This document shows positions 1,136 to 56,339 of a stretch of 57,649 nt of DNA, piece after piece. Position 1 is the stretch's first letter; every line of letters starts with the position of its first letter. Source of the DNA: a bacterium (GTDB lineage Bacteria; Oederibacteriota; JAAXVQ01; JAUVAV01); contig JAIORK010000016.1 in the NCBI GenBank assembly GCA_021108215.1, forward strand, positions 1 through 57,649, read 5' to 3'. The notes below the pieces were generated by a model. That model saw nothing but the letters and a program-made list of their open reading frames with translations. It searched no databases and was not told the DNA's origin. The translations under genes and the position numbers were made by a program.

Positions 1136-1168
1136 GGGTAAAAATATATAGCTGAAAATATAATTTGT

Positions 1169-26984: not shown

Positions 26985-27162
26985 GGGTTTAGTATTGCTT
27001 TTTTTGAATAATTGAAATAAATTACCGTGCAGCGACGTCTCATTTATATTGAATCCAAGCGGCAAAAAAGTAAAAAAAAATCATACTTTTTTAGGCACAA
27101 ATCAGTCTAATCAATAGGCAATGAATACTTCAGGTATCGAGAAATAGATTTCAGGAGGCCTT

Positions 27163-30558: not shown

Positions 30559-33330
30559 GTGAAGAAATTTTTCTATCTATTTTTGATAATGAGTTTGGTA
30601 TTTATGTGCCGGCCCGCGCTCGGGTACCAGTTTGGCACTGCCTGGGATGAATCCGAAAATGATGGGACACCTACGGACAATATTTACCTGGACGACCAGC
30701 ACGACCGTGGCGTAAATTTCCGCAATGTGTACATCCGCTGGAATAAATTTGAAAACATAGGGGACAATGTCTGGGATACCGATTATATCAACCGGAAAAA
30801 AGCGGAAATTGTAGCGTATGAACAAGCCGGATTCGATGTTATTATCCGGATTAATTTTTTCCCGGTTCCGGAATGGTATTTTTTTGCTTATCCTCAGTCC
30901 CGTTTTAAAAATCAATATGATGTGGAATGGAAACCAGAAGAGCGCGGCTGGAATGATGACGAAAGGGACACAAGCGCGGTCAGTATCTGGAACAACGCTG
31001 TTACCAATCCTTATCAAGCTCAGCTTGATGATTATTTATCGCAAGTTTTTTCAGAATTAGGAACCGATTTCTGGGCGGTTTATTTATCCTGCGGGCAGTA
31101 TGGCGAAGTATCTTATCCAATATTGGTTGCAGCTGATGGTGATACCCGTGGGGCGGATTTTTTGGGAAACACCAATTGCTATTGGGCCTGGGATGTTAAT
31201 GCCCGTGCCTCGCTGGCTGCCACGTATGTCGCTGACCCACGTTTGACGGATATTCAAAATTTTAAACCCGGGCTGCCCGGCGGCAAAGACCCCTATGCCG
31301 GGGAACGGTTGGTTAATGGCGGGTTTGAGGATACCGATTATCTTGATTTGCTTGGTTCAGACCAACCCCGGGCGATCGCCAATTGGCGTCATTCAGCACA
31401 GATAGCTTCAGATAAACCCGGAAGCTGGCAACCGGAAATCCAAAGCACAGACAGTCAGTCAGGAAATCAGCATCTGCGCCTAAACGGCCAAGGTGGGAAC
31501 CAGTACTACCTGCGCCAGCGCGTCCCGGTGGTCGGAGGGCGGCCGTACACGTTTGAAGGCTATATGAAGGTTTCCAATACGAGCCAAGGGATGCTGCGTA
31601 TTCAACAGCTCAATGCTTCAGATGCGGTGGTGGACACCCTGGTTTTATTTTCGACAGCCGAGAGCTGGACACATGTGTATCAGAGCATCACCATGAATGC
31701 AAGCACGATACGAGCCAATATTGATGTTTATCTGGACACGGGAAGTACGCTGGTTGAATACGATTCGATTTCTTTACACGATGCCCAAGTGACAGACCAT
31801 TATGCCGCAGAGAAATTTTTGGCTTGGTACTACACATCTTTGGCAGATTATATCAATTGGCTCATTCCCACTGTGCGTATGTACTATCCCGCCGGGCGAT
31901 TGTTTCTCATGGGCGGCGGTTTTTCCAGTATGGCGGGTGACATTGAGGATGAAATTCAGCAGGACATTATGGGGAATAGTAAAAATAATCACTGGGTGCA
32001 ACGCGGGGCAGCGCCGGACCGGTATTTGACAGGGATTCTACCAGGCAACCGGACCAATTTGTATTTTCTCAACACTGCGCTGGAACAAATTGATCAAGGG
32101 AATGGTGAAACCGCCTGGGAGACGGGTCCCTTGTATACGGATTTTTCAGCACCCCATTATTTTGCTAAATTGGCGGATATTTTTGGGTTGAGGAAATTTG
32201 GGGAAAATGCAGGCAACAATGATTATTGGGAGATGTCACGCGCTTTTCAAAATATGCAGGACTACGCTTATGAAGGTCTGGCCTGGGCCAAGCCGTATGA
32301 GTTGTACCAACCTTATCTCAATCGCGCTTCGCTCAAAGATTACGCTGAGTTTATCACCGCCTATGGCGGACCGGCTGCCAAACAACCAACCGGCGGCAGC
32401 ATTCTCCCGATTGTGACCGGGTGGGAAGGGGATGCTGAACCGCGCGGCTATGATAATGTTTATAACTGGATCACTGATGTGGAATCCTATAATACTGCTG
32501 AATATTCCATGCCACTGTGTACGCGGGCGCAGCCGGATTTTAATCAATACAATCCTGTTACGCCCTATGCAGATTCACAGTATTATTTACTTGTGGCAGG
32601 CAAAGTCACAAGTGGCGCCACGAGTCCCAATTGTTACTACTGGCTTTTCAATGATGTGCTGATTCCTTATCATGATATTACAATTCAAAGCGGCACAAAG
32701 CTAAGTTATTGGATTTATCCTTACGATGATTCGGGAGATGCTACGGATGGCAACCGTTGTGTGGCGATTGATCTTATTTTTTCTAATGGCTCAGCATTGC
32801 GCAATCATCCGGAATTGACAGACCAAAATGGTCATCATTCACATCCGGCACAAAGGCATGATCATCTCGTACCTAATACCTGGAATTATGTAGAAATTGA
32901 TTTGTCCGCCATGGCGGGTCAAACCATTCAGCAGGTCTGGGCGGTTTTTGATGATCCCAATTATCTCAGTCACGGGGAAAAGTACCGCGTGTATATTGAT
33001 GATTTACGCTTTGCCGATCCATTGAAAGCCACGCCGACCGTGACACCGACACCTGTACACAAATATCCGCTTGGTGCGGCAGTGCCTAATCCTTTCCTCC
33101 CGACCCTGGGGCAGACGCTGGATTTTGGTGTGGATGCGTATTATTCGGCGGGGACAGCCTATCAAATTAAAATCTTCAACTTAAACGGTAAGCTTATAAA
33201 AATCCTGGACAATGCCGGGCAATGGGACGGACGCAATCAAAATGGTCGCTATTGTGAAGGCGGAGTGTATTTTTATCAAATCAAAATTGAGAACCGGACC
33301 ATTCACGGAAAAGTAGTCGTCCTAAAATGA
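30559..33330 (+). CDS. Secreted 'GTAWDES' TIM-barrel hydrolase with inserted carbohydrate-binding domain
   Basis: A 923-aa exported protein with a GTG start behind CGGGGGG. Signal peptide 1-22. The barrel begins FGTAWDES and continues RNVYIRWNKF, then DVIIRINFFPVPEWY, and reaches YGEVSYP (E183). A CBM4/9-like sandwich (about 253-415, VNGGFEDT...) is then inserted, and the barrel resumes (WYYTSLADYINWL) to FGENAG (E549). E183 and E549 are the candidate catalytic pair. A second sandwich (TGWE...YRVYIDDLRF, about 615-830) follows. The C terminus (GAAVPNPF...KVVVLK) is a FlgD-Ig/T9SS-like domain of a different subtype. The barrel recalls GH42/GH14 enzymes, but I cannot assign a known family. It overlaps the next start (ATGA), so the two are translationally coupled. 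Confidence 0.75.
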   Translation: MKKFFYLFLIMSLVFMCRPALGYQFGTAWDESENDGTPTDNIYLDDQHDRGVNFRNVYIRWNKFENIGDNVWDTDYINRKKAEIVAYEQAGFDVIIRINFFPVPEWYFFAYPQSRFKNQYDVEWKPEERGWNDDERDTSAVSIWNNAVTNPYQAQLDDYLSQVFSELGTDFWAVYLSCGQYGEVSYPILVAADGDTRGADFLGNTNCYWAWDVNARASLAATYVADPRLTDIQNFKPGLPGGKDPYAGERLVNGGFEDTDYLDLLGSDQPRAIANWRHSAQIASDKPGSWQPEIQSTDSQSGNQHLRLNGQGGNQYYLRQRVPVVGGRPYTFEGYMKVSNTSQGMLRIQQLNASDAVVDTLVLFSTAESWTHVYQSITMNASTIRANIDVYLDTGSTLVEYDSISLHDAQVTDHYAAEKFLAWYYTSLADYINWLIPTVRMYYPAGRLFLMGGGFSSMAGDIEDEIQQDIMGNSKNNHWVQRGAAPDRYLTGILPGNRTNLYFLNTALEQIDQGNGETAWETGPLYTDFSAPHYFAKLADIFGLRKFGENAGNNDYWEMSRAFQNMQDYAYEGLAWAKPYELYQPYLNRASLKDYAEFITAYGGPAAKQPTGGSILPIVTGWEGDAEPRGYDNVYNWITDVESYNTAEYSMPLCTRAQPDFNQYNPVTPYADSQYYLLVAGKVTSGATSPNCYYWLFNDVLIPYHDITIQSGTKLSYWIYPYDDSGDATDGNRCVAIDLIFSNGSALRNHPELTDQNGHHSHPAQRHDHLVPNTWNYVEIDLSAMAGQTIQQVWAVFDDPNYLSHGEKYRVYIDDLRFADPLKATPTVTPTPVHKYPLGAAVPNPFLPTLGQTLDFGVDAYYSAGTAYQIKIFNLNGKLIKILDNAGQWDGRNQNGRYCEGGVYFYQIKIENRTIHGKVVVLK

Positions 33331-35297
33331 TGGAATTCCGCAATTGTTTCCTCAAACAGAATTTTCAAGTCATTGTTTTTCTTTTTCTGACAACAATTTT
33401 ATTCAGCGTGTCGGTGGGTGCGTATTTTATCCCGGCCGGATTGGGGGTAAGACCGGCAGCCTTGGGCGGCGCGTTTGTGGCAGTGGCAGATGATGCCAAT
33501 GCAGTATTGTTTAATCCGGCAGGATATGCCGGTCTGGAGAAAATCGAGATGGTCAGCATGTATTCTGAACTGTATGCCGGATTGAACGCCCGGCTCTTTA
33601 CCGGAGAGCTTGACCGTACCGGATACAATTTTCTATCTGTTGCACTTCCATTTGGCCCTGAAATCGGCACGGTTGGCCTGGCCTGGATCCAGCTTGATTC
33701 TTTGATCTATACGGAAAATGTTTATGCTTTGAGCTACGGGAGAACCTTGCCGCTGGTTCCGATTGATCTGGGGATCACCCTCAAAGTATTACAATGGCAG
33801 GTCGCTCAAAATGAGTTTACCACCCAAAACAGTTTTTACCCTTATTCCCAGTTTGGCAAAACCGGAGTGACGGCAGATATCGGGGTGAAATATAAGTTGG
33901 ATAAAAACTTGACGATTGCTGCGAGTGTGGAAAATAGTATACCCGTGGACATGGGGATTACCCGGACAGAGATCGTGCCCATGGTGGTGAGAGCCGGGGC
34001 CGCCTATCATCTGGTTTTGGAAAATCGCTACATTGATCACCTGCTGGTTGCCGGTGAGATTGATCTGCGCGAAGATGCGACTGATGAAATATTAAATCCC
34101 CGGCTGGGGCTGGAATCCACGCATCTTGACTTGTTTGCATTACGTGTCGGCACCACATTCAATGAAGTTTCCGCCGGACTGGGCATTTACTACCAGGTGC
34201 CGCAAACCCCGCTGGGGGTGCAACTGGATTATGCGTTCACCTATCCGTTTGAGATGAGCGGTACCGGGGGCTCGCACCGAATCGGTTTGAAAGGTCAATG
34301 GGACCATCAGGCAACACCAATACTTTCCAAACAGTTAAAGGAAGAGCAGCCGGGAACGTATAGGAAAGAAACAGCTGTTCCCGGGGATGCGGGAGCAACG
34401 GGGCCGGTATTCGGACCCATGCCGCTTGCACCGGTATTGCCTGTACCGGCCGTCGTGCCGCCCACGAGGCAAGAAGCGCCTCTCGGATCGGTGATCCCGG
34501 ATAAATATCCAAAAAAAATTGTAATAGGGATTGATCAAATATTGTCTAATCAGAAGGCAGCGGAAATGAAATCCGATTTGGCATATATCCTGGCTTATTT
34601 GAACGAAAAAATCAGTATTAAAATTGAGCAGCGTCGGCTCACGATCGACGATTTGAAAAAACAGTTTTTACTGGGCGAACTCGACATGGTTGTCTCCTAT
34701 AATGAATATTTTTACGAATTCTACCAAAACGGTCTGATCCGGCCGGCAATCGTGATTCGCAGTCAGGGAAAACCATATTTTCTATACTATCTTTATGTCA
34801 GCCAGGACAGCACGGTCGTGAATAAGAAGCAGTTAAAAGGGAAGCGTTTGGGATATTTGGGTGGTGAAAAGAGAAAATATTTGAAGACAATCATGTATGA
34901 CAATATTCCTGAGTTTAATGCAGCCGGATATTTTGATAAAATTGTTGCATACTCAACGCCGATGGAAGCAGTCCTGGCCCTGCAGATGGGCACGGTGGAT
35001 GCGCTGCTTGGCATGGACCGGGAGTATCAGTTGGATGCAGGCGATAGCCAAGCGCAGGGGGTTAAAATCCACGGCGGGCTGAAGATTATCGCCCAGTCTC
35101 CGCCCATACCCAATAGTCCCGTATGGATTAAGTGGACCGGGAATGAAAAAAAACAGGCCGGTCTCCGGAGGATCGTTGAATTGATGCTTCTGGCACACCA
35201 GACCAAAAGGGTCCGGGATATTCTCAATAAGCTGGGGATTGACCGCTTGATTTCTTTTGATGAAAAAAAATACCATCATTATCTGGGTGGCCGCTAG
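33327..35297 (+). CDS. PorV/UPF0164-like barrel fused to a periplasmic solute-binding domain
   Basis: A 656-aa exported protein. After a signal peptide (to about residue 32), residues about 33-335 are a PorV/UPF0164 barrel (GLGVRPAALGGAFVAVADDA, then NAVLFNPAGYAGLE). A Pro/Ala/Val linker (about 336-395) leads to residues about 398-656, which match PhnD/SBP_bac_3-type binding proteins (KIVIGIDQILSNQKAAEM, LGELDMVVSYNEY, LKGKRLGYLGG, LQMGTVDALLGMD). A ligand-binding domain hung from an outer-membrane barrel and facing the periplasm would be an unusual sensor or capture device. It starts inside the stop of the upstream hydrolase (ATGA) and is followed at 28 bp by a histidine kinase gene, so one transcript probably covers hydrolase, fusion, kinase and regulator. 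Function inferred. Confidence 0.75.
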   Translation: MMEFRNCFLKQNFQVIVFLFLTTILFSVSVGAYFIPAGLGVRPAALGGAFVAVADDANAVLFNPAGYAGLEKIEMVSMYSELYAGLNARLFTGELDRTGYNFLSVALPFGPEIGTVGLAWIQLDSLIYTENVYALSYGRTLPLVPIDLGITLKVLQWQVAQNEFTTQNSFYPYSQFGKTGVTADIGVKYKLDKNLTIAASVENSIPVDMGITRTEIVPMVVRAGAAYHLVLENRYIDHLLVAGEIDLREDATDEILNPRLGLESTHLDLFALRVGTTFNEVSAGLGIYYQVPQTPLGVQLDYAFTYPFEMSGTGGSHRIGLKGQWDHQATPILSKQLKEEQPGTYRKETAVPGDAGATGPVFGPMPLAPVLPVPAVVPPTRQEAPLGSVIPDKYPKKIVIGIDQILSNQKAAEMKSDLAYILAYLNEKISIKIEQRRLTIDDLKKQFLLGELDMVVSYNEYFYEFYQNGLIRPAIVIRSQGKPYFLYYLYVSQDSTVVNKKQLKGKRLGYLGGEKRKYLKTIMYDNIPEFNAAGYFDKIVAYSTPMEAVLALQMGTVDALLGMDREYQLDAGDSQAQGVKIHGGLKIIAQSPPIPNSPVWIKWTGNEKKQAGLRRIVELMLLAHQTKRVRDILNKLGIDRLISFDEKKYHHYLGGR

Positions 35298-35325: not shown

Positions 35326-36582
35326 GTGGAAAAGAAAAATAGTGTATACAAAATAACGCTGGCAGCCATGCTGGTCGTTGTATTATCCATTGCCGCAATT
35401 GCGGTCATCTGGGTTAATGTGAGTGAAATGGAGAAACAGCATGAGCAGGAGCACAGGCAGTTGTCTGCCAGCATTGCGGAGACATCCAATCAGTTCATGC
35501 AGGCCGGCCAGCTCACCTACTTCTACAAATTATTGCAACTGCTGACAAAAATATCTTTTGTGGATTACCTGGCGGTCCACATCAATGGCCACAAAAAGCT
35601 GGAAACGCAAAAAAGCGTCCGGGTTAATGAGCAGTGGATCGATCAAAATAAAACCGGCAGTGATGCGGATTGGCATGCAAGAAAAATTCGGCAATATTAT
35701 GTGAATCAGCCCCTGTACCCTGCAAAGGGGAGGGATGGTGTTTTGACCATTGTGTTTTCCAAAAAAGAATACCAAAAACCGATCCGTATTATTCAAGGGG
35801 CCATCGGTTTTATTGTGCTGCTTTTGATCGTGATTCTTGTTGTGATGAACAAACTCCGCCAGACACTGGGCAAGCTCGAATATGCCCGGAAGAACAAGGC
35901 GGACACCATCTACCGTATTACGCATGACGCGCGTCAGGACTTGACCGTGGTCCAGGGGAAACTGACGTCAGTTCTGCGGAATCGAAAAAAGGGAACCAAA
36001 CACATCAATGTTGAAAAGGATTTGAAAACCGCCCATGAAAGTACGATTGCGTTGGACCGGTTTTTGCACAATCTCAATGACCAGCAGCGTATGGAAAAAG
36101 GCGAGGTTGAGTTGCTGTCTGCCCGGGTGGATATTATTAAAATTGCCCATACCGTTATGTCCGGATTCGAGGAGAACCTGGCATTACGAAAAATGCGGTT
36201 TGAACGGAATTTGACATCAGAATCGCTCTGGGTCTGGGCTGACCCGCAGATCGCGAAAAGAATCCTTATGAATTTGGTCCACAATGCCATCAAATATTCC
36301 GACAATGGAGAAATGATCCGGCTCCAGGCGGAATCGGACAACCGGCAGGTTAAAATATATATTAGCGACCAGGGACACGGCATTGAAAAAAAATACTGGA
36401 AAAAAATATTTCAGGCCTATTATCAGATTGATGCCAACAGTGTAGGTATGGGACTTGGCCTGGCCAATTCCCGGCAACTGGCCAAGCTGATGAGCGGGGA
36501 GCTGGGTATTGTGGAGAGTGTGCCTGGGCAGGGCACCACCTTTTATCTGGCCCTTCCGGCTAGCGAAGGAGTGAAGGCATGA
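35326..36582 (+). CDS. Membrane sensor histidine kinase
   Basis: A 418-aa inner-membrane kinase with a GTG start (AAGGATGAG just upstream). Transmembrane helix 1 is about 9-30, a ~125-residue periplasmic sensor loop follows, and helix 2 is about 155-178 (AIGFIVLLLIVILVVM). The phosphoacceptor is H200 in RITHDARQDL, a slightly atypical H-box. The catalytic domain has N-box LMNLVHNAIKYSDNG, G1 ISDQGHGIE and G2 GMGLGLANSRQLA. It overlaps the response regulator gene by four bases. Position right after the barrel/solute-binding fusion suggests that the fusion's ligand-bound state could be read by the periplasmic loop. Confidence 0.9.
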   Translation: MEKKNSVYKITLAAMLVVVLSIAAIAVIWVNVSEMEKQHEQEHRQLSASIAETSNQFMQAGQLTYFYKLLQLLTKISFVDYLAVHINGHKKLETQKSVRVNEQWIDQNKTGSDADWHARKIRQYYVNQPLYPAKGRDGVLTIVFSKKEYQKPIRIIQGAIGFIVLLLIVILVVMNKLRQTLGKLEYARKNKADTIYRITHDARQDLTVVQGKLTSVLRNRKKGTKHINVEKDLKTAHESTIALDRFLHNLNDQQRMEKGEVELLSARVDIIKIAHTVMSGFEENLALRKMRFERNLTSESLWVWADPQIAKRILMNLVHNAIKYSDNGEMIRLQAESDNRQVKIYISDQGHGIEKKYWKKIFQAYYQIDANSVGMGLGLANSRQLAKLMSGELGIVESVPGQGTTFYLALPASEGVKA

Positions 36583-37961
36583 ACCGGATACTAATTGCAG
36601 ATGATGACATCAGCGTTGTCGACACCATTGCAGGGATATTAAAAAATGAAGGCGGGTTTGAAGTGGAGACCGCATTGCGGCACGACGAAATTATCGGAAA
36701 AATAGAATGCTTTCAACCGCATCTTTTGACCCTGGACCTGGAATTTGGGAGTCAGTCAGAGGCCGGTATCGCCATTTTAAAAGAAATTCGAAGCCGCTAT
36801 AATGAAAAAAGATTACCCATCATCATCATCAGCGGCACTGGGGATACGGTTAAGCTCCGGGAATTGGTTAAAAGCGGGATGAACGATTATATTTATAAAC
36901 CCATTGACGCAGGTGACCTGCTGGAAAAAATATCCGGCTGTATCCAGGTTGCGCCGGTAGACACAACGATCTGGAAAAAACAAGTGATCGGTAACTCCAA
37001 AGCGATGATGGATCTTATGCTGCATGTGGGGCGGCTAACGCGCGCTGAACTGGATACTTTGATTTTGGGGGAAAACGGGACCGGCAAAGACCTGATCGCC
37101 GAGCTGTTTCACGAGATGGGCCCCCGGCATGGAGAGCGGTTTTACGCCATTGACTGCACCAATATCCCGGACAACTTAAGTGAAATCGAACTCTGGGGGC
37201 ATGCCGCCAATGCGTTTACCGGTGCGGTAAAGGACAAAAAAGGCAGGAGTGAAATGGCTGACCAGGGAACTCTGTTGTTGAATGAAATCGGGGATCTTTC
37301 TTTATCTCAGCAAGCCAAAATATTGAATTTTATTCAGAATAAAACCTTTTTGAGAATCGGCGAAGTCGAGCCGCGCTCTTTGGATATTGTCATTTTAGTT
37401 GCGACCAATAAAAATTTATATGAAATGGTCAAGCAGGGGAAGTTCCGTGAAGATTTATATTTTCGTCTGCATAGCAATAACATCATCATGCCGCCTTTGC
37501 GGGACCGTCTTGAGGATATTCCCCTATTGGCCGCGCATTTTATGAAAAAATATAATAAAAAACTGAAGAAGGACATAAAGGGCATTGTGTCCGACGTGCT
37601 GGAAAAATTTCAGGCGCTCCTGTGGCCGGGGAATGTACGGCAACTGGAAAAGTGCATTGAAACCGGGATGATCAACTGCCGCGGGCAGCAGATTAAATGG
37701 AAAGATGTGCAGTCTTATATCGAGCATGGCGAACAGGCGCTGCATACCTCCGATGCCGGTCAACCGGAATTTGATCCGGATTGGACTTATAAAAAAATTA
37801 AAGACGCTATAAAAAATAAAGCTGATGAAACTGAGCGACACTATATCACGCACCATCTGGAAAAAAATAAATACAAAATTGTCAAAACCGCCCAGGCGAT
37901 CGGGTTGAAAAACTATCAGCAATTGACTGAGATCATGCAGCGGTTGAAAATATCGAAATAA
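36579..37961 (+). CDS. NtrC-family sigma-54-dependent response regulator
   Basis: A 460-aa cytoplasmic regulator. Receiver 1-120: acidic pocket D8-D9-D10, phosphoacceptor D53 and K in YIYKPID. The AAA+ core (about 135-365) has Walker A GENGTGKD and the sigma-54 contact loop NAFTGA, where the usual first Gly is Asn. Walker B reads LLLNEIGD, with Asn in place of the conserved Asp. The C terminus is Fis-like (KTAQAIGLKNYQQLTEIM). The Phe and Thr of the contact loop are kept, so sigma-54 engagement is plausible; the Walker B change may slow ATP hydrolysis. It is co-transcribed with the kinase (ATGA overlap). A perfect sigma-54 promoter lies 173 bp beyond its stop, upstream of the ECF sigma gene, its most obvious target. 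Confidence 0.9.
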   Translation: MNRILIADDDISVVDTIAGILKNEGGFEVETALRHDEIIGKIECFQPHLLTLDLEFGSQSEAGIAILKEIRSRYNEKRLPIIIISGTGDTVKLRELVKSGMNDYIYKPIDAGDLLEKISGCIQVAPVDTTIWKKQVIGNSKAMMDLMLHVGRLTRAELDTLILGENGTGKDLIAELFHEMGPRHGERFYAIDCTNIPDNLSEIELWGHAANAFTGAVKDKKGRSEMADQGTLLLNEIGDLSLSQQAKILNFIQNKTFLRIGEVEPRSLDIVILVATNKNLYEMVKQGKFREDLYFRLHSNNIIMPPLRDRLEDIPLLAAHFMKKYNKKLKKDIKGIVSDVLEKFQALLWPGNVRQLEKCIETGMINCRGQQIKWKDVQSYIEHGEQALHTSDAGQPEFDPDWTYKKIKDAIKNKADETERHYITHHLEKNKYKIVKTAQAIGLKNYQQLTEIMQRLKISK

Positions 37962-38019
37962 GGGCGGTTCACGAACCGCCCCTACGCAGCCCCCCCTGAA
38001 CCCAACGTGGTTCAGGGGG
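37959..38019. repeat. Two adjacent palindromic repeats at the regulator stop codon
   Basis: The first (37959-37985, arms AGGGCGGTTC / GAACCGCCC, closing CTAC) contains the TAA stop of the regulator gene in its left end. The second (37992-38019, CCCCCTGAACC / GGTTCAGGGGG, loop CAACGT) belongs to the family also seen at 47579 and 48670. Either hairpin could stabilise the mRNA end. Confidence 0.8.
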
Positions 38020-38133
38020 AAATAAAAATCCAGCCTTTTATTATATAACACCAGCCTTGTATAAAATCATTCATTTCCACAGACCATTTTCAGAAAAAGC
38101 TTATTTTCAAAGGTTTACCGTGTGCAGTGATTG

Positions 38134-38149
38134 TGGCACGAACGTTGCT
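38134..38149 (+). promoter_or_regulatory. Consensus sigma-54 (-24/-12) promoter
   Basis: TGGCACGAACGTTGCT matches the -24/-12 consensus (TGGCACG-N4-TTGCW) at every fixed position, with the required ten bases between GG (38135-38136) and GC (38147-38148). Transcription would start near 38160, about 30 bp before the ECF sigma start. The neighbouring gene encodes a sigma-54 activator. Confidence 0.85.
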
Positions 38150-38189
38150 ATTCATATATTGAAGAAGTATTTCAATTGTGGGGGGAAAT

Positions 38190-38768
38190 GTGGATCGCAG
38201 CGACCGGGAACTCATCACAGCCATTAAAAATAATGATCCCGACGCGGCCCGCGTGTTGTATGAACGGTATTATGCTATGACAGTTCGGGTTGCCCTGAAG
38301 GTATTGCACTCAACAGATGATGCCCAGGATATTGCCCAGGAAGTGTTTATGCGTGTCCTGGTCAGGAAAAAAATACTGGCTTTTCGCGGAGATTCCCAAT
38401 TGGGTTCATGGCTGTACAAAGTGACTGTCAACCACTCACTTTCCTTTATCCGGAAAAAAATGAAAAGGCAGGAAACCCAGCGCTTGATCTTAAAAGAATG
38501 CCGTGAGTTCAATAGCCGTACCAGTGAAAATGTGGACCAGCTTTGGAAACTCGAAACCCATGAAAAATTGGAACACCTTTGCGAAGCCCTCGATACCCTT
38601 CCCGGTCTGTACGGAAAATGCCTTTTTCTCAGATATTATGAGGGCCAAAAGTATAAGGAAATCGCGAAAAAACTAAAAATAACCCGGGACCGGGTCGGCA
38701 TGCAGATCATGCGGAGCCGGAACCTGCTGAATAAAAACCAGGAATTAAAAAAACTGTACGTATCCTGA
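38190..38768 (+). CDS. ECF-type RNA polymerase sigma factor
   Basis: A 192-aa sigma-70 family group 4 protein. Region 2 spans about 5-80 (DPDAARVLYERYY, STDDAQDIAQEVFMRVLV, FRGDSQLGSWLYKVTVN). Region 4 spans about 120-180 (LDTLPGLYGKCLFLRYYEGQ, YKEIAKKLKITRDRVGMQIM). The start is the GTG at 38190, seven bases after GGGGGA; the in-frame GTG at 38178 has no ribosome site. No anti-sigma factor is adjacent, so control is probably transcriptional, through the sigma-54 promoter directly upstream. The gene sits 145 bp before a 2870-aa secreted protein and may direct transcription of the surface-protein genes; that target is inferred. Confidence 0.9.
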   Translation: MDRSDRELITAIKNNDPDAARVLYERYYAMTVRVALKVLHSTDDAQDIAQEVFMRVLVRKKILAFRGDSQLGSWLYKVTVNHSLSFIRKKMKRQETQRLILKECREFNSRTSENVDQLWKLETHEKLEHLCEALDTLPGLYGKCLFLRYYEGQKYKEIAKKLKITRDRVGMQIMRSRNLLNKNQELKKLYVS

Positions 38769-38913: not shown

Positions 38914-41900
38914 ATGAAATTGAAATCTTTAGTAGTGATGAGCATTTTGGTTGCGACGGTATTTGCATTTATAGTACCCGGGAACGCGTATCATTTCGGA
39001 ACCGCCTGGGATGAATCGCATTACAACCCCGGTGACACCAATTGGCACGGGAAACCGGTGGATCATCTTTATCTGGCGGATGAGAAAGACCGCAGTATAT
39101 CAACCCGCAATGTCTACATCCGCTGGAACAGCTACCAGACCGGGATCAGCACTTGGGATACGGACTATATCAATCAAAAAAAGGCGGAAATCAAACATTT
39201 CCAGGACGGTAATTTTGATGTTGTTCTGCGTATCAATCCGTTTCCTGTGCCTGATTGGTATCTTAATGAGAGCGGCAGCCGGTTCAAGAACCAATATGAT
39301 GAGGCATGGGAACCGGACACTTATATTCCACAATTAATGCAGCAGGTCGCCACAGCCCATGGCCTCTCCCTGCCAGGTGATGAGGAACAGGTTAAGGCGC
39401 TCATGAAAGCGGAATACAATGTTGATTACATGGAAAAAGACAATTCCCAGGTCAGTATCTGGGACAGCAATTATGAGAGCCGTGTACGCACTTATATTGA
39501 ACAGGTCATCACTACGCTTAATAGCGATCCGGAAATCAATGTAAATAATTTTTGGGCCATCTATATTTCCAGCGGGCAGTTCGGGGAAGTGGCTTTTCCG
39601 GGCCGTAATCCTGTGAAGCGAACCAGAAGGTACAATGAGGCTACCATGCCGCCGCCTGATCCTGCCAATCAGGACGGTTTGGGAGTGGATTATTACCGCC
39701 ATTGGAACAGCTATTGGGGATTTGATATGGATGCCCAGGCTGCATGTCCGGTAGCCGGTTGGGAACCAACGGAGATGGCAGGTCAGGGACAGCGTACAGT
39801 TAATGGCGGGTTTGAAGATACGACGTATTCCAATACGATTGCCAACTGGTGGAGTTCGCGTGATTGTCATAATCAGGGTGCGTGGAATCCAAGCGTGATC
39901 AATGATGTTGCCCAGGCTGCCACGGGATCGCATTTTTTACGTTATCAGAGCCTGAGTGGATCGCAATATTATCTCCGCCAGGAGATGCCTGTGCGGGTCA
40001 GTACAAATTATGATTTAAGTGGTTATATTCGCGCGCAAGGCGGAGAGACGGGTACCATTGTATTGCGGCAAACAGATGATCAGGGCAGTACGGTGGGTAC
40101 ACCCATTACGCTTACCAGCACGCTAAGTACCTGGAATCAGGTCAGTCAGAATTTTACCACGCAGGCGGATGCCGCCTATGTGCAGGTCGATCTTTATCTG
40201 ACCGGCGGATCAGGCACAGTTGATTTTGATGCCATTTCAGTATTGGATACAGTCAATCCTACGGCAGACCACAGCCAGGCGGAGCAGTTCATTAACTGGT
40301 ATTATCAAGGTCTGGCCAATGCTGTGAAATGGCAGATTGCAGAACTGCGCGAGCATTACAACGGACGATTAATTCTCATGGGCGGCGGTGATGCCACCCG
40401 GCCCGGTGATATTGAAGCGGAGATCAACAATGATCTCTCCGGTAAAACCAAGAATGCCTATTGGGTCAGCCGCGGATTTGCCATGGACCGATATTTACAA
40501 TTACTGGTTGATGATTCGACAGTCAATCTGACCAATGTTTACTTTGCCAATACCGGCATGGAAGTTGTGTGGAATGATTGGGAAAATGCCAATCGCACAG
40601 CCGGTGCGGCGTGGAACCAAAGTCTGTTGCAAAGTGACTGGTCGGCGCCAAAGTATTATGCCGAGATCGCGCGTGAAATCATGGGTGCGGGCACCTCCCT
40701 GTATGGTGAGAACGGCGGTGCCAATAATCTCGATCAGATGAATGATGTGTTTCAGAATATGCAGGAGAATAATTATGAAGGCTTGGGCTGGTATACGCTG
40801 GGACAATTGTTTGAACCGTCTCAGGGTGCCAATATTCTCAATTACGCAGACCAGATCACGCAATATAATAACCTCATGCCCAAAGCACCCACAGGTGGAA
40901 GCATTTTGCCTCTCCAGACCGGTTGGGAGTGGTATGAGTCGCAGGGATACGATAATATTTATAACTCCCTTTATAATGTAGAATCTTATGATCCTGCCGA
41001 GTTTGGCCTGCCTTTGTGTACCCGTACATGGCAGGGAAACAGTCAAGGCGTTGATACGCGTACTGGGGATGGGTTTTTGGTAGTTGCCGGAAAGGCAAGC
41101 AGCGGCGCAAGTAATCCGAACAGTTATTACTGGCTGTACAATGATTTTCTCCTGCCTTATCACGATATCACCATTGGCGCAGAGACGAAGTTGTGTTACT
41201 GGATTTATCCGTATGATGATGCCGGTGATCCGGATGACGGCAACCGCTCGGTAGCGGTTGATTTGATTTTTTCCGATGGTACGGCCTTGCGTGACCATTC
41301 CGTGCCCTCAGGTGCGATCAGCCCGGTGCTGCTTGATCAGAACAGCCATTATGTTCATCCGGCGCAGCGGCATGATCACCTCACCCCCAATGCCTGGAAT
41401 TATGTCGAGGTCGACCTCTCCGCCATGAGCGGTCAGACCATTGAACAGGTCTGGATGGCTTTTGATGATCCGAATTACAGCAGCCACGGGGACAAATACC
41501 GGGTGTACATTGATGATTTGAAATTCACGAATACCCCGGAGACGTTTGACGAAGATTTTATTGGCGCGTTTGATACCACGCCGGATACCTGGAAAACCGG
41601 CGGGTCACACATCACTTTTACAGGTGACGGGGTCACCACAGCCAAAGGCACACTGGTATCGGGAACCTATGGTGATATCCAGAGTCCGGTGGTGGCTAAT
41701 TTTGATCAGGGAACCTACGACGCGATTGAATTTCTCATTACCGATATGACCCCTGGAGCTTTTCTGGAATTTGGATTGCAGCAACAGCGGGAAAGCAATC
41801 GCGAGTATTTATATAACAGTAAGTTTAATTATTTTGATGTGCCCGGTCTTTACCGTGTGCGCTTCAGCGATTTTGCGCCGGGAAAAGATACGTCTGCTTT

Positions 41901-44900
41901 CACCATGAAATTTTGGTTGAAAGAAATTGCCGGGAATACAGTTGATTTTGATTATGTCAAATTGGTCCAGCATCCACCCATTCCGGTGGCAACACCTTCT
42001 CCGAGTGGTTGGGCCGAGGAATTTACCGGCGCGGCAAACGAAATGCCAACCGGCTGGCGGGACCGTAAAGCCTGGGGTGAATACAATGCCCGGATTGAGC
42101 AAAACGGCACGAATCAGGCTGTGATCACATTGGGGTCCATCGATACCTACGGCGATGTCATCACCCCGATAATTGAAAATTTGGATATTGCCGCTTATTC
42201 CATTTTGGAATTCAAGATCGCTGCCATGGACCTGGATCACTTGGATGTTAACATTCAACAAGAAACCGGTTCCTTTCAGAGTTTTTCCGGTGTGAGTGTT
42301 TCGGCGCCGGGTGTTTATACCATTGATTTAGGCACCGTAGTGCCGTCCGGCACGGATATGTCTCGTTTTTCCATCAAGTTTTGGCCCAATGATACGCAAA
42401 AAAGCGGCACCGCTGTTCTTGACTATATTGAGATTAAAGCCGCGCCCGCTCGGGTGAACGGCACTTGGGAAAATATAGGTGATTCGTTTAATTTCAATAT
42501 TACGCTTAATGCGAGTGGGCCATCAATTGAGGTATATCAGAATGACCCCTATACAACCTGGATAGAGCACAGCGGATTGGTTGAGGACATTTTTGTAAAA
42601 CAATACATCGGCCAAGGTCAATGGGAATTATGCGGCACCAAACTGAATATGTATCCAAATGATCACACAAGAGAGGCTTCTGTTCCTGAGCTTGTTTCTG
42701 CCGGTGGTTATCTTTATGCAACCTGGGCAGAGGGCGGGTATCTCAATGAAAGTATTTATGTCAAACGCTGGAATGGTGCGGTCTGGACGCAGTTGCCAGG
42801 TTTGATTGGCGAGTGGGAACATTATGAATCAGAGAACCCCCAATTATCTGTCGATATGAGCAACACCCCTTATGTGACCTGGGCGGAGCGTCGCTCCTAT
42901 CCGGCAAATAATTGGAAAGTTTATGTCACACGCTGGTCCGGTAGCACTTGGCAGCAAATGGGTGGGAGGTTGAATATTGTGAGTGGCGATGATGCGGGCA
43001 ATCCTGATATCGCACTGTTCAATACAACACCTTACGTCACGTGGGTTGAGGGAAATAAGATTTATGTAAAACATTGGACAGGAAGTGGTTGGGCGGCGGA
43101 TGGTGGTGTTCTCAATCGGAATAGCGCCGATCCAGCCACCGGTCCGGAAATTGTGTTGTGGAATAATATGATCCATGTGGCTTGGTTGGAAAGCCGGGCG
43201 GTTCAGATCAAACGGCTTAATGGTTCGACATGGGAGTGGGTTGGACAACCATTACAGGTTGATCCTAATAACACAATTGACCGGCTAAGTATGGCAGATA
43301 CAACCAGCACATTATCGGTTGTCTGTCAGAGCAATGGATTGATGTATCTTTTTGCATGGGATGGCATTGAATGGAAACGGACCGATCCGGATCTTGACCG
43401 TATATCCGGTCAGGTTGTCCACGGTGTGGATGTTTGTAATGGTATGGGTTTGCCGTATGTGGGATATACGGAAGAAAATGATGGGCGTAAAGTATTTGTC
43501 AGCCGCTTTATTGAAGGAGGCATCACAGTGCCGACCGCAACGCCCACCGCTGTACCCACGCCATTACCGAGTGAGTATTGGCGGGAAGATTTCAATGGGA
43601 GCGACGGTGTTCAACCGGTTTTGTGGCAGGACTACTCTAATTATTCTGGATGCGACGGTGATATTCAGTACAATGGCGCCGGCGAGGTCTATGTTGGTTC
43701 CTATATGGAATCATGGGGAAAAGTCCTCTCGCCGCCAATGCATTGTGATGTCGGTGTTTATTCATATTTAAATGTTGATGTTTCTTGGGTGAAAGAAGGT
43801 GCAACGTATAAAATTGGTATTCAGGAAATTGGCGGTGCATGGAATTATTGGGATTTGACGACAAGTTTGAATAGTACAGGCATCTATTATTTGGATTATC
43901 AACAAACAACCGGTTGGTCAGGTGAACATGATTTTTATATTCAATTAACCATCGAAGGAATGTATGCGGCGATTAAGGTCGATTGGATAACCCTGACGCA
44001 GGGATTGCCGACAATGACCCCGACACAAATTATAACAATGACAGCCACTCCGACCCCAACCCCAACCAGTACCGTGACCCCGACGGTGAGTCCCAGTCTG
44101 ACGATCACAATAAGCCCAACCACGAGTCCAAGTTCGACAGTCAGCCCGACCCCAAGCGCAATACCCACTGCGACCGCGATTCCAAGTTTCGTGGATTACA
44201 GCACCTACCATGGCGGGAGCAGTGAGGAAAAGGTGCAGGACATGCATGTGGATGCCAATGGCTACATCTATATTGCCGGTATTACCACCTCCAATGATCT
44301 GCCTGTGACCACAGGTGTGGTAGATGAAACATACGGCGGCGGCAATGACGGGTTTGTGGTCAAGTACGCGCCGGACGGCCAGACGGTTGTCTTCTGCACG
44401 TATTTCGGCGGCTCGGACAATGACAATGTGCGCGGCATCACAACTGACAGTGCAGGCAACATCTATATCACCGGTACGACCTGGTCGAGTGATTTCACGA
44501 CCACAGCCGGTGCGTATGACACCGCCTTGGGAGGTGCGCGTGATGCATTCATTGCCAAACTTTCCAGTGACGGTCAGACATTGTTATACAGTACTTATTT
44601 AGGTGGCAGTGCTTATGACTATGGATTCTGTATTGATGTCGAAAGCGTGGGTGATGTTGTCTATGTGGGCGGTTTCACGCACGGCAATTTCCCGGTGACA
44701 TCCGGCGCGGCACAGGAAACTTTCGGCGGCATGGGCGACGGCTTTGTGACCAAGTTCAATATGGCGGCCGGTACGATTGTTTATAGCACGTACCTCGGCG
44801 GCCAGTATTGGGAACCGGTTGATGCGATCATCGTGAAAAATGGCGAAGCCTATCTGACCGGCCATACCCAGTCACCGAATTTCCCGGTTACTCAGGATGC

Positions 44901-47526
44901 GCTTGATTCAACCAACAGCGTACCGGGTGCCAATCAGGGTGCGGACGGGTATTTCACCAAGCTCAGTACAGATGGTTCCACCTTCCTGTACAGTACGTTC
45001 ATCGGACCGGAAAGCAGTCCTTTGACCACGACGTTCACTGAAATGGCGATTGATACAGCAGGGAATATCTATCTGGTGGGGGATACGTCAGAGCAGGATT
45101 TTGCTGTCACAGCCGGATGCATCCAGCCGGGTTTTGGCGGCGGATCGCGTGACGGTATTGCTGTCAAACTCAACGCAAATTACAGCTCCATTACGTTCAG
45201 CACCTTCCTGGGTGGTGATGGAAAGGATGGCTGCACGGATATCACGATTGATACGTCAGGCAATCTCTGGATCACAGGCATGACCGATTCCAGTGTTTTC
45301 CCTGAATCAGAAACCGGTCTGGGCGGGTATGATGTTTTTGTGAGCAATCTCAACGCGACCGGTGATCTGCTCTGGTCCGGACGTTTGGGCGGGAGTCAGG
45401 ACGAGGGATTGGATAATTTCCATTTGAAGGCAGCGTATCAGGTATTGAATAATATGCTTTGCGTGACCGGGCGGACCACTTCGCAAAATTTCCCAGTCAC
45501 CTCAAATGCTGAACAATCCACGTACGGCGGTGGTGTGTCAGACAGCTTCCTCTCGATGCTTGGACAACCGGCTACGACCTACACGCCCACCCCGACCCCG
45601 AGTACGACAGCCACACCTACTCAGGAATATGTCTGGGAGGATGATTTTAATGGCGGCACGCCGGGTGAGCAACCATCAGCCTGGGAGGATGAGACAGAGC
45701 ATAGTGACTACAATGCAGACATCTACTATTCCCAGACCGCATCCTGGGCCCGGGTAAGCCGGACCGCAGAGGAGACCTGGGGAAAGGTATTAACCTCCAT
45801 GATAAACTGCGATGTGGATACCTTCCCGATGGTACAGATCAAAGTGAGTAATATTTCAGCGGACACCACCTGGAAAGTCGGTATTCAGGAGACTGAAGGC
45901 GCCTGGCAGTACTGGAATTTAAATTCCAGCAGCAGTGATACCGGGAACTTTGTGTATAATTATAAGGAGATCACATCCTGGACCGGTATTCATAATTTCA
46001 GCGTGGTTTTAAGTGTGGAAGGCGCGGTAGGGACATTTGTGGAAAGTGATTTTGTCCGGGTATTGCGTTTGCAGGCCACACCGACACCGACGGTTACGCC
46101 GACAGTAACACCGACGTTTACGCCGGGTACCACCGGAATCTGGAATGAAATCTTTAGCTATTCTGATGACAATCCGGCGTCTGTTGCCGGTGATCAGCCG
46201 CCGGGATGGTACGATGAGACTGATGACGCAGGGTATAATGCTGAGATTGAGTATGCTGTGACTGATGGACTGGCCGAACTTACGACTGTGAGCGGCGAGC
46301 AGTGGGGCAAAGTATTGAGCTATTCTCAGAGTGTGGACCTGGCAAGCTATCCCATGCTGGAAGTTGTGATTAGCGATATCCCGCAAGGCACGGCCAAGAT
46401 CATGGTATTCAGCCAGGAGAGCGGTTGGGAAGAGTATGACCTGAGCGGATCATTAACTGTGGCAGGCACTTATGCTTACGACATTCCATCGGCAACCGGC
46501 TGGAGTGGCGTGAAAAATTTCGGTATACAGCTGATCTCCGAGGGCGGGACAGCAGTATTTGATTCTATCATCAGCCAATCGGGTATGACACCCACCCCGA
46601 CGGTCACACCGGTGGCGACCAATGCCTATATCGATATTTTTGATGGAACGCCGGGTGAACAACCTGCGGATTGGCGTGATGAATCGCAGGATTATGGTTT
46701 TGATGCGCATATTGCCTATGCAACCGGCGGCACAAGCGCAGATGTTTCACGTACCCAGGAAAGTACCTGGGGCAAAGTGCTCTCTTCGATTATTACCTGT
46801 GACACCTCGGTCTACACCCACGTGGAAATCGAAGTGGATACAGTGCTGTCGAGTACAGCCTGGAAACTGGGCATCCAGGAAGAGGACGGCGCATGGCAGT
46901 ACTGGGATCTCAATGTGAGCCATACCCAGACCGGCACGTTTGCGTATGACTATGCTGCGGTGACCGGATGGACGGGTATGCATTCATTCCGCATTCAGAT
47001 CACAGTGGAAGGTGATTCAAGCGCAGGCATTGAAGTGGATCAGATCAGGGTTTGTCAGGAAGAGACGGTCACCGGTTCAGCCTATATGGGGGTTGCGGTT
47101 TCCTATTCGCCAACCTGTACTGTCACTCCGACCCCGACGATGACCGCAACACTGACCCCGACAATGACACCAACGCAAGTAGTGTTGAGCAGCACACTGA
47201 CAGCGACCCGGACACCCACTGCGACATCTACACCCTGGTTGAAATCAAAAGAGGTCATGGCCTATCCCAATCCGGCACGCGGTCAGGTGAACTTTGCCTA
47301 CACAGTCAGCGGCCAGGGCAAGGTCGTGATTGATATTTACAAATTGACCGGAGAGCGCGTGGCAACGGTCACCGAGCATTTCAATGCCGGTACCGGTCAG
47401 ACCCTGCGTACTGCCTGGGATGCGGTGGATGTGGCGCCGGGCATCTACTTCTGCCGGATCGTGATCACAGATGGCAGCGGGAAAGAAATGTTTAGACAGA
47501 TGAAGAAGGTCGCATTAATTAAGTAG
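38914..47526 (+). CDS. Giant secreted 'GTAWDES' hydrolase with two propellers, many modules and sorting domain
   Basis: A 2870-aa exported protein, the largest in the window. Order: signal peptide (1-25); TIM barrel part 1 (26-290, E225 in FGEVAFP); inserted CBM4/9-like domain (about 295-449); barrel part 2 (450-655, E599 in YGENGG); 'TGWE' sandwich (about 668-874); two divergent modules (about 878-1178); a BNR-like propeller (about 1183-1536, repeats such as PYVTWAERR and PYVTWVEGN); a module; Thr/Pro linker; an SBBP propeller (about 1760-2219); three modules (about 2239-2718); and the sorting-like domain (2782-2870, ending KKVALIK). It is a paralogue of the proteins at 30559 and 49019, and its SBBP part resembles that of the 16808 protein. 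It probably acts at the cell surface on polysaccharide. The TAG stop lies in a perfect palindrome. Confidence 0.8.
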   Translation: MKLKSLVVMSILVATVFAFIVPGNAYHFGTAWDESHYNPGDTNWHGKPVDHLYLADEKDRSISTRNVYIRWNSYQTGISTWDTDYINQKKAEIKHFQDGNFDVVLRINPFPVPDWYLNESGSRFKNQYDEAWEPDTYIPQLMQQVATAHGLSLPGDEEQVKALMKAEYNVDYMEKDNSQVSIWDSNYESRVRTYIEQVITTLNSDPEINVNNFWAIYISSGQFGEVAFPGRNPVKRTRRYNEATMPPPDPANQDGLGVDYYRHWNSYWGFDMDAQAACPVAGWEPTEMAGQGQRTVNGGFEDTTYSNTIANWWSSRDCHNQGAWNPSVINDVAQAATGSHFLRYQSLSGSQYYLRQEMPVRVSTNYDLSGYIRAQGGETGTIVLRQTDDQGSTVGTPITLTSTLSTWNQVSQNFTTQADAAYVQVDLYLTGGSGTVDFDAISVLDTVNPTADHSQAEQFINWYYQGLANAVKWQIAELREHYNGRLILMGGGDATRPGDIEAEINNDLSGKTKNAYWVSRGFAMDRYLQLLVDDSTVNLTNVYFANTGMEVVWNDWENANRTAGAAWNQSLLQSDWSAPKYYAEIAREIMGAGTSLYGENGGANNLDQMNDVFQNMQENNYEGLGWYTLGQLFEPSQGANILNYADQITQYNNLMPKAPTGGSILPLQTGWEWYESQGYDNIYNSLYNVESYDPAEFGLPLCTRTWQGNSQGVDTRTGDGFLVVAGKASSGASNPNSYYWLYNDFLLPYHDITIGAETKLCYWIYPYDDAGDPDDGNRSVAVDLIFSDGTALRDHSVPSGAISPVLLDQNSHYVHPAQRHDHLTPNAWNYVEVDLSAMSGQTIEQVWMAFDDPNYSSHGDKYRVYIDDLKFTNTPETFDEDFIGAFDTTPDTWKTGGSHITFTGDGVTTAKGTLVSGTYGDIQSPVVANFDQGTYDAIEFLITDMTPGAFLEFGLQQQRESNREYLYNSKFNYFDVPGLYRVRFSDFAPGKDTSAFTMKFWLKEIAGNTVDFDYVKLVQHPPIPVATPSPSGWAEEFTGAANEMPTGWRDRKAWGEYNARIEQNGTNQAVITLGSIDTYGDVITPIIENLDIAAYSILEFKIAAMDLDHLDVNIQQETGSFQSFSGVSVSAPGVYTIDLGTVVPSGTDMSRFSIKFWPNDTQKSGTAVLDYIEIKAAPARVNGTWENIGDSFNFNITLNASGPSIEVYQNDPYTTWIEHSGLVEDIFVKQYIGQGQWELCGTKLNMYPNDHTREASVPELVSAGGYLYATWAEGGYLNESIYVKRWNGAVWTQLPGLIGEWEHYESENPQLSVDMSNTPYVTWAERRSYPANNWKVYVTRWSGSTWQQMGGRLNIVSGDDAGNPDIALFNTTPYVTWVEGNKIYVKHWTGSGWAADGGVLNRNSADPATGPEIVLWNNMIHVAWLESRAVQIKRLNGSTWEWVGQPLQVDPNNTIDRLSMADTTSTLSVVCQSNGLMYLFAWDGIEWKRTDPDLDRISGQVVHGVDVCNGMGLPYVGYTEENDGRKVFVSRFIEGGITVPTATPTAVPTPLPSEYWREDFNGSDGVQPVLWQDYSNYSGCDGDIQYNGAGEVYVGSYMESWGKVLSPPMHCDVGVYSYLNVDVSWVKEGATYKIGIQEIGGAWNYWDLTTSLNSTGIYYLDYQQTTGWSGEHDFYIQLTIEGMYAAIKVDWITLTQGLPTMTPTQIITMTATPTPTPTSTVTPTVSPSLTITISPTTSPSSTVSPTPSAIPTATAIPSFVDYSTYHGGSSEEKVQDMHVDANGYIYIAGITTSNDLPVTTGVVDETYGGGNDGFVVKYAPDGQTVVFCTYFGGSDNDNVRGITTDSAGNIYITGTTWSSDFTTTAGAYDTALGGARDAFIAKLSSDGQTLLYSTYLGGSAYDYGFCIDVESVGDVVYVGGFTHGNFPVTSGAAQETFGGMGDGFVTKFNMAAGTIVYSTYLGGQYWEPVDAIIVKNGEAYLTGHTQSPNFPVTQDALDSTNSVPGANQGADGYFTKLSTDGSTFLYSTFIGPESSPLTTTFTEMAIDTAGNIYLVGDTSEQDFAVTAGCIQPGFGGGSRDGIAVKLNANYSSITFSTFLGGDGKDGCTDITIDTSGNLWITGMTDSSVFPESETGLGGYDVFVSNLNATGDLLWSGRLGGSQDEGLDNFHLKAAYQVLNNMLCVTGRTTSQNFPVTSNAEQSTYGGGVSDSFLSMLGQPATTYTPTPTPSTTATPTQEYVWEDDFNGGTPGEQPSAWEDETEHSDYNADIYYSQTASWARVSRTAEETWGKVLTSMINCDVDTFPMVQIKVSNISADTTWKVGIQETEGAWQYWNLNSSSSDTGNFVYNYKEITSWTGIHNFSVVLSVEGAVGTFVESDFVRVLRLQATPTPTVTPTVTPTFTPGTTGIWNEIFSYSDDNPASVAGDQPPGWYDETDDAGYNAEIEYAVTDGLAELTTVSGEQWGKVLSYSQSVDLASYPMLEVVISDIPQGTAKIMVFSQESGWEEYDLSGSLTVAGTYAYDIPSATGWSGVKNFGIQLISEGGTAVFDSIISQSGMTPTPTVTPVATNAYIDIFDGTPGEQPADWRDESQDYGFDAHIAYATGGTSADVSRTQESTWGKVLSSIITCDTSVYTHVEIEVDTVLSSTAWKLGIQEEDGAWQYWDLNVSHTQTGTFAYDYAAVTGWTGMHSFRIQITVEGDSSAGIEVDQIRVCQEETVTGSAYMGVAVSYSPTCTVTPTPTMTATLTPTMTPTQVVLSSTLTATRTPTATSTPWLKSKEVMAYPNPARGQVNFAYTVSGQGKVVIDIYKLTGERVATVTEHFNAGTGQTLRTAWDAVDVAPGIYFCRIVITDGSGKEMFRQMKKVALIK

Positions 47527-47602: not shown

Positions 47603-47706
47603 TAGAAAATAAAATAAAAAAAATTGTAATAAATATCCCGGAAAACAGTCTGATTAAGTAGAAGTCGTGACTGGAACTGAAAAAAATATGGAGAGGGGAT
47701 TGAATA

Positions 47707-48654
47707 ATGAAAAAGATGATTGTTTCCCTAATTGCAATGATTATTATCATTTCTTCCGGAGGTGTGGTCTGGGCGGCCCAGACTGATTATGCCATCGGTC
47801 AGATCGGCGGATCGGAATTGAAACTCGGTCTGGGCGCCCGTCCGGTTGCCATGGGAGAGGCTTTTGTAGGTCTGGCAGATGACGTCAATGCTCTCGCCTG
47901 GAATCCATCCGGTTTGGGACAAATCAGCAATTATCAGGTCGGTTTTATGCACAATATTTATATTCAGGAAACCTCGCAGGAATATCTGGCGTACGCGCAA
48001 CCCCTGTTTGAAGGCGCCGGGTTGGGAATCAATATGACCTATTTGAATTACGGAACTTTTGAAAAAGTTGATTTCGACGGTACAATTCCGGAGGTTGTTG
48101 GAGAATTTACTCCGTATGTCATGACATTTGCAGCTGGATACGGACAATGGATCATGCCGGGTGTGGCAGTGGGTGGTGCCGTGAAATTTATTTCTCAGAG
48201 CATTGATACAGAAACATATTCAGCAGTGGCAGTTGACCTGGGCGGCATGATCAAGCCCGGCATTGAGGGGCTTCAGATAGGGTTGGCAGTACAAAATCTT
48301 GGAACGCAATTGGCGGATGCCGATCTGCCTATGAATGCGAAGGCTGGAGTGGCGTATCTTTTGCCAGTCCAGTTAAAAGCCGGTGATATCTGGCGTACGC
48401 TCTTGGATGTAAATTTGCCGTTTGGGGATACTAATTACACATCTGCCAATATCGGGACCGAATACATCTATAATAAAATGGTGGCACTTCGTGTGGGCTA
48501 TAAAATTAAAGATACCGGAGATTTAGAAGGTGTCACCGGGTTGACCGCCGGTGTTGGTCTGCAATTGAACATGTTTCATATTGATTATGCCATGCTTTCC
48601 TATGGGGATCTGGGTATCTCCCACCAGATTGCGCTGACAGTGAATTTTCTTTAG
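47707..48654 (+). CDS. PorV/UPF0164-family outer-membrane barrel protein, second copy
   Basis: A 315-aa paralogue of the protein at 29437. Signal peptide 1-23 (...GGVVWA/AQTDY), then ELKLGLGARPVAMGEAFVG, ADDVNALAWNPSGLGQ and beta strands to the terminal aromatic NFL. Shared blocks include QVGFMHNIYIQETS, GEFTPYVMTF and TLLDVNLPFGDTNYT. It stands between two giant secreted proteins with type-A-like C-terminal domains, just where a cargo shuttle would be expected. Ribosome site GAGAGGGG. A palindromic hairpin 16 bp past the stop can act as terminator. CAGTCT lies 56 bp upstream of the start, as also upstream of 27163. Confidence 0.8.
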   Translation: MKKMIVSLIAMIIIISSGGVVWAAQTDYAIGQIGGSELKLGLGARPVAMGEAFVGLADDVNALAWNPSGLGQISNYQVGFMHNIYIQETSQEYLAYAQPLFEGAGLGINMTYLNYGTFEKVDFDGTIPEVVGEFTPYVMTFAAGYGQWIMPGVAVGGAVKFISQSIDTETYSAVAVDLGGMIKPGIEGLQIGLAVQNLGTQLADADLPMNAKAGVAYLLPVQLKAGDIWRTLLDVNLPFGDTNYTSANIGTEYIYNKMVALRVGYKIKDTGDLEGVTGLTAGVGLQLNMFHIDYAMLSYGDLGISHQIALTVNFL

Positions 48655-56077: not shown

Positions 56078-56339
56078 TTAATACAATAAACATCAATGCC
56101 ATATACCGGGATAACATTCTGACTGCAAGAATGCTTGCTGATCAGGACGCCTGATCACTTGTTGGGTGTTCCTCACTTAAAAAAATCAGAAAAAATTATT
56201 GAAAAAACATTGAAATTATTTGGGTTTTATCCAGTCTAACTTGATAGGAGGGGGATCGAATATACTTTTGGTCAATTAAACGATATACTTAAGGTGAACC
56301 CGCAAAATAATGAAAAACATGTTTTGCTGGAGGGATACA
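56078..56339. other. Spacer before the last module protein
   Basis: About 260 bp. It holds a small perfect hairpin (TGATCAGG-ACG-CCTGATCA, 56139-56157), a CAGTCT box at 56232-56237 and the ribosome site GGAGGG at 56329-56334. No gene seen. Confidence 0.5.

Follow-up and report, generated by a model that had tools for sequence, protein, structure and literature searches.

The 57,649-nucleotide contig JAIORK010000016.1 (assembly GCA_021108215.1), the whole of which is referred to here as the window, comes from a 3.56 Mb genome that is 97% complete and is placed in the candidate phylum FCPU426, of which we know of no cultured member. Within it a histidine kinase (HK) gene and the gene of an NtrC-type response regulator (RR) are followed by a sigma-54 promoter and then by the gene of an extracytoplasmic function (ECF) sigma factor, and it is this set, with its probable input and output, that is considered here (Table 1). 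The open reading frames (ORFs) of HK and RR overlap by 4 bp (ATGA). The HK has two transmembrane segments by hydropathy (~10-28 and 155-173) and a histidine, H200, that is invariant in the alignment. The RR matches Response_reg (PF00072, E=1.1e-17), Sigma54_activat (PF00158, E=4.5e-53) and the AAA lid in Pfam, and thus has the receiver and AAA+ domains by which NtrC-family activators are recognised; its Walker A motif, GENGTGKD, is retained, and its C terminus resembles a Fis-type helix-turn-helix in alignment, with no Pfam helix-turn-helix match in that region. From the conserved H200 and D53 and the overlap of the genes, the HK would phosphorylate the adjoining RR.

The promoter, TGGCACGAACGTTGCT, begins 173 bp past the RR stop codon and is the sole match without mismatch to TGGCACGN4TTGCW in the window. 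From its end it is 28 bp to the earliest GTG of the ECF ORF (38178) and 40 bp to a second GTG at 38190, which lies behind GGGGGGAA and is the likelier start judging by its better ribosome site. The ECF protein consists of sigma2 and sigma4 regions only (PF04542, PF08281) and scores 91.9 bits against TIGR02937, where the cut-off is 42.9. No anti-sigma domain was found beside its gene in the Pfam search, so the level of the ECF factor would be set by transcription. The original prediction, made by a first reading of the DNA, had described the four-base overlap, a full-consensus promoter at this place about 30 bp ahead of the ECF gene and the lack of an adjoining anti-sigma factor, all of which are borne out, with the spacing being 28-40 bp depending on the start that is chosen. 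It also had a signal entering by phosphorelay, which is kept here, and it overlooked the input protein encoded just upstream.

Table 1. Genes and sequence elements of the cassette and its surroundings (window coordinates)
Feature	Position	Strand	Basis or remark
PorV-like 14-strand barrel fused to PhnD/AioX-type periplasmic binding domain	33327..35297	+	PF12974, E=4.5e-13; AlphaFold2
Histidine kinase (HK)	35326..36582	+	HATPase_c by Pfam; hydropathy; alignment
NtrC-type response regulator (RR)	36579..37961	+	Receiver (D53), AAA+ with NAFTGA loop, Fis-like C terminus
GC-rich palindrome directly after RR stop, probable 3'-end hairpin	37962..37981		Single genomic site; hairpin fold
Palindrome CCTGAACCCAACGTGGTTCAGG, probable 3'-end hairpin	37995..38016		Exact copy 47580-47601, near copy 48678-48699
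Candidate enhancer dyad AATAAAAATCCAGCCTTTTATT	38021..38042		Midpoint lies 102 bp ahead of -24
-24/-12 sigma-54 promoter TGGCACGAACGTTGCT	38134..38149	+	Consensus match, genome counts, clade enrichment
ECF sigma factor	38190..38768	+	Mechanical ORF start 38178; Sigma70_r2 and r4
2870-residue surface-type protein, SBBP repeats and Por_Secre_tail	38914..47526	+	Next gene downstream of ECF
Candidate ECF promoter TGTAATA-N15-AGTCTGA	47625..47653	+	Before PorV-like gene; conserved in L034, L037
PorV-like gene, probable ECF target	47707..48654	+	PF03687
Candidate ECF promoter	56211..56239	+	Before sorting-domain gene 56310-57569
Weaker candidate ECF promoter	27082..27110	+	Before sorting-domain gene 27163-29202

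Sigma-54 itself is encoded in the window genome, and rpoN is likewise found in its order. In the genome TGGCAYRN4YTGCW is matched 13 times and its reversed control once, and some of the sites precede genes that were read from sequence as glnA, a fliL-like gene and dnaK, which suggests that the pattern marks working sigma-54 promoters in this organism. A second, divergent rpoN with a weak activator-interacting domain is also present (L030:11484-12851, contig C39), about 6 kb from a paralogous set of barrel-binding protein, HK and RR genes, and is found in no other genome of the order. It was considered as a dedicated partner of regulators whose sigma-54 contact loop has drifted, and rejected, as the clade described below and its promoters occur without it.

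The arrangement is not confined to the window. Relatives of the RR with 35-45% identity form a clade of 19 regulators in the window genome and five related genomes from the same family and order, with no clear members elsewhere, and module-derived profiles were used to annotate their neighbourhoods (L-numbered loci below). Ten of these loci (the window, L025, L026, L033, L034, L036-L039 and L105) have a -24/-12 element in the interval after the RR, ahead of the following gene; of the nine beyond the window, one is in the window genome and eight are in four relatives. The next gene is directly an ECF gene of the same subfamily in the window, L025, L033, L034, L037 and L105, while in L036, L038 and L039 a small receiver-like protein comes first and the ECF gene after it, giving eight further ECF modules altogether. 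L026 has the promoter and the receiver-like gene on a contig that ends without an ECF gene, L102 shows a same-subfamily ECF gene whose promoter falls at a contig edge, and L027 has a -24/-12 element before its operon. In uniform 500-bp intervals following the 19 clade RR genes, 9 strict -24/-12 matches were counted, where 0.05 are expected. Distances between RR proteins also correlate with those between their ECF partners (Mantel r=0.53, p=0.001). The promoter arrangement is therefore more than chance and the wiring looks real, as far as sequence comparison can tell. Conservation of the gene pair in relatives was one of the checks proposed for the cascade of HK, NtrC-type RR, sigma-54 and ECF factor in the original prediction, and since the module does recur in related genomes that cascade is not refuted by it and is supported. 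As an aside, the receiver-like proteins encoded directly after the promoter (in L026 as in the three modules above) give weak scores against receiver models, and in a contig scan with a four-sequence HK alignment the real matches were confined to the two closest relatives.

It could be argued that most transcription of the ECF gene comes from a different promoter or from read-through of HK and RR, with the -24/-12 element being minor or unused. Three loci (L023, L028 and L032) do have an ECF gene nearby and no -24/-12 element was found in them; however, the strong enrichment of the element in the interval downstream of the RR genes, together with the hairpins that lie between RR and promoter in the window and so speak against read-through, makes this explanation very improbable.

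A binding site for the RR may be present upstream of the promoter. The GC-rich palindromes that follow the RR gene were considered as enhancer sites and rejected, as they have copies elsewhere in the window that also come after stop codons; that the one directly at the stop codon might be a dispersed repeat was likewise rejected, since it is a single site in the genome. The CCTGAACCCAACGTGGTTCAGG hairpin stands after three stop codons, the third copy with a compensatory base-pair change, and nowhere else in the genome. Because these GC-rich palindromes look like 3'-end hairpins, the AT-rich dyad AATAAAAATCCAGCCTTTTATT was chosen as the enhancer candidate. Between 80 and 130 bp ahead of the -24 element, perfect dyads with 6-bp arms occur in 8/11 and 6/11 modules, in two overlapping 40-bp bins, against a mean of 0.8 modules in shuffles that preserve base composition only. 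Their distance to the -24 element is fairly constant (standard deviation, SD, 14), and that to the RR stop codon varies far more (SD 107) because of the long gaps in L036 and L038. Related regulators also have dyads in common, TTCACAN3TGTGAA in L034 and L037 and GAAGTAAATRCTTC in L036 and L038. The phosphorylated RR would bind the dyad about 100 bp upstream and open the sigma-54 promoter that stands before ECF.

The probable input of the system is encoded immediately before the HK. The ORF 33327-35297 overlaps the preceding ORF by four bases and stops 28 bp before HK, and is therefore probably on the same transcript. In the AlphaFold2 model of its 656-residue product 14 strands at 73-325 form the barrel and a mixed domain follows at 397-654, for which the best PDB matches are ArrX, PhnD and AioX. 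A free-standing relative of this binding domain precedes the HK in three other modules (L036, L038 and L039). It is likely, from the model, that the PhnD/AioX-type domain fused to the PorV-like barrel is the input and that the front end of the cassette is AioXSR-like. Tethered to the barrel, the domain would sense a ligand or the state of the envelope and present it to the HK. The binding domain in the window has no cysteine, so arsenite is not the expected ligand, and arsenite sensing was dropped as unsupported.

The output appears to lie among surface genes. No obvious hairpin is seen in the 145-bp gap between the ECF gene and the large surface-type gene that follows it, which is possibly the first ECF target or co-transcribed with ECF. 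Further downstream, the product of the PorV-like gene is 62-65% identical to those of its counterparts adjoining the sigma-54-ECF modules of L034 and L037, and TGTAATA-N15-AGTCTRA precedes the gene in all three genera, the L037 site being one base off. Exact matches to this motif number three in the genome, two of them in this cluster, and its -10 half resembles that of E. coli sigma-E promoters. From such sites the ECF factor would drive local surface genes, including the PorV-like gene and those of sorting-domain proteins. Sorting-tail and PorV-like genes are present in the window, and elsewhere in the genome there is a 2138-residue frame (L122, genome contig C12 near 146350) with a weak SprA_N match, also seen in three relatives; a type IX translocon in FCPU426 is possible on this basis.

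Taken together, we favour a self-contained cassette in which the PorV/PhnD-type input would act through HK, RR and the sigma-54 promoter on the ECF factor and thereby on surface genes, and to this reading, drawn from sequence and its conservation, we give a probability of about 0.68. Several observations weigh against it. The Walker B motif of the RR reads LLLNEI, with asparagine for the aspartate of hhhhDE, so NEI and not DEI, and the same change is found in about half of the clade. Five clade loci (L024, L029, L030, L031 and L035) have neither promoter nor ECF gene nearby, and HK distances show no significant correlation with ECF distances (r=0.17, p=0.14). The dyads of L034, L036 and L026 look terminator-like by eye, the GC-rich palindromes in the window follow stop codons, and the model of the input protein is of moderate confidence (predicted local distance difference test, pLDDT, 67). 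To these are to be added the loop sequences of the clade and the genome-wide distribution of the ECF motif.

The loop by which such regulators contact sigma-54 is normally GAFTGA, and in the window RR it is NAFTGA. This variant (G1 to N) is among those listed for experimentally validated activators (PMC3162934), so the window RR has a known active form of the loop. Graded with the substitution table of Francke et al. (PMC3162934), 10/19 clade RRs including that of the window are functional or likely functional by their loops, and 9/19 carry changes predicted to abolish sigma-54 contact; canonical GAFTGA is found in 1/19. Four of the predicted-defective regulators (L033, L036, L037 and L038) stand beside intact promoters, so either this lineage tolerates more than the published rule allows or a different activator is at work. 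With a clade that has drifted so far from GAFTGA, sigma-54 activation by the window RR is not to be assumed. It may be that the ECF promoter is sigma-54 dependent and is opened by another enhancer-binding protein with GAFTGA, with the RR having lost or losing its sigma-54 contact and acting otherwise, for example via sigma-70 or as a repressor in the manner of TyrR or HupR. Candidates exist, as seven non-clade activators are encoded in the window genome, six with GAFTGA and one with GAFTSA. Yet the window loop is in a class with validated activators, the ATPase motifs are largely retained across the clade, the position of the promoter tracks the RR clade and closely related RRs have dyads in common, and we hold this alternative to be rather improbable. 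The clade is natural material for asking how far GAFTGA can drift while sigma-54 promoters and ATPase motifs persist.

The step from ECF factor to surface genes is the weakest part of the cassette, since TGTAATA-N15-AGTCTRA was chosen after its sites had been inspected and a genome-wide regulon search with it gave no enrichment at one mismatch (16 matches against 24 in controls). The relay could be real and the regulon of the ECF factor nevertheless unrelated and dispersed, with the motif serving another of the ~10 ECF homologues. Eleven ECF matches are found in the genome, and no clear motif is seen before the gene directly downstream of ECF. Against this, the motif is conserved in three genera before a PorV gene beside the sigma-54-ECF module, and its sites cluster locally. 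A dispersed regulon is thus unlikely, but has to be taken seriously, and the last step of the original prediction, in which the ECF factor feeds surface genes, keeps its support at the level of the motif and does not gain it at the level of the genome.

A bolder version of the self-contained cassette is that the barrel-binding domain fusion is a sensor of secretion status and that the clade activates sigma-54 without GAFTGA, and that both hold together is doubtful and on balance improbable. If true, an outer-membrane protein would itself report surface-protein traffic to the kinase, the sigma-54/ECF relay would tune the output of surface proteins and their PorV-like partners, and activation in the clade would proceed through loops without GAFTGA, including those in which T4 is replaced by G, N or A.

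Elsewhere in the window an NrpR-type nitrogen regulator gene (128-1195, minus strand) adjoins a gene with a glutamate synthase domain (1502-3178, plus strand). Two AAA_14/DUF4143 genes were also seen, at 4910-6088 of the window and at L030:12977-14155, one of them beside the second rpoN.

The input side is best compared with AioX and ArrX of arsenic oxyanion sensing, each of which works with an HK and an NtrC-type response regulator at RpoN promoters (PMC6011840, PMC5908839), the target of AioR at such a promoter being TGGCACAACGATTGCA (PMC6011840, PMC5908839). As in AioXSR and ArrXSR, a PhnD-fold binding protein, HK and RR are encoded together here with an RpoN promoter. AioX binds arsenite via Cys106, whereas the window has a cysteine-free domain joined to a PorV-like barrel, and its promoter serves an ECF gene in place of an oxidoreductase operon. 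No aio, arx or arr oxidoreductase genes are adjacent, the neighbours being surface-type and PorV-like.

The output side has precedents in other bacteria. HrpRS, or HrpXY with HrpS, acts through RpoN on hrpL, which encodes an ECF factor without a known anti-sigma that drives secretion genes (PMC5263251, PMC8103513). The likeness is that an enhancer-binding protein and sigma-54 drive such an ECF gene, and a -24/-12 promoter with a candidate upstream enhancer site, as in HrpL-type control, is found here by sequence; the phylum and regulon are different, and the Hrp system has no binding protein. HrpR and HrpS do not have a receiver domain, unlike the window RR. In E. coli the NtrC-family regulator of QseEF activates an ECF gene via RpoN at rpoE P2 (PMC8103513). 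There, as here, a two-component NtrC-family RR and RpoN lie upstream of an ECF gene. rpoE has an anti-sigma factor and several promoters and lies outside the qseEF locus. With these two cases documented, sigma-54-to-ECF wiring is not new in itself. In Borrelia burgdorferi Rrp2 and sigma-54 induce a second sigma factor that controls surface genes such as ospC (PMC2940757), but this second factor is RpoS and not an ECF factor, and it is acetyl phosphate that activates Rrp2, independently of its kinase.

A further comparison is with PorY-PorX-SigP, where a two-component system feeds an ECF factor controlling type IX secretion genes, with a PglZ-type regulator (PMC4800418). Both place a two-component system upstream of an ECF factor, but the window RR has the receiver-AAA+ form, and no PglZ domain was matched in the eight genomes searched. 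Membership of PorXY-SigP was rejected on these grounds, in line with the original prediction, which likened the gene order to that system and noted that PorX is not a sigma-54 activator. No description of a repeated cassette that unites an AioXSR-like input, a sigma-54 step and an ECF output next to PorV-like genes was found in the open-access literature. The cassette puts together parts already known, and the switch itself is of a familiar kind; it is compact and repeatedly copied, and it would join an AioXSR-like input to a sigma-54-to-ECF output close to PorV and sorting-tail proteins, in genomes that lack PorX, and so provide an independent route for controlling type IX-like surface proteins.

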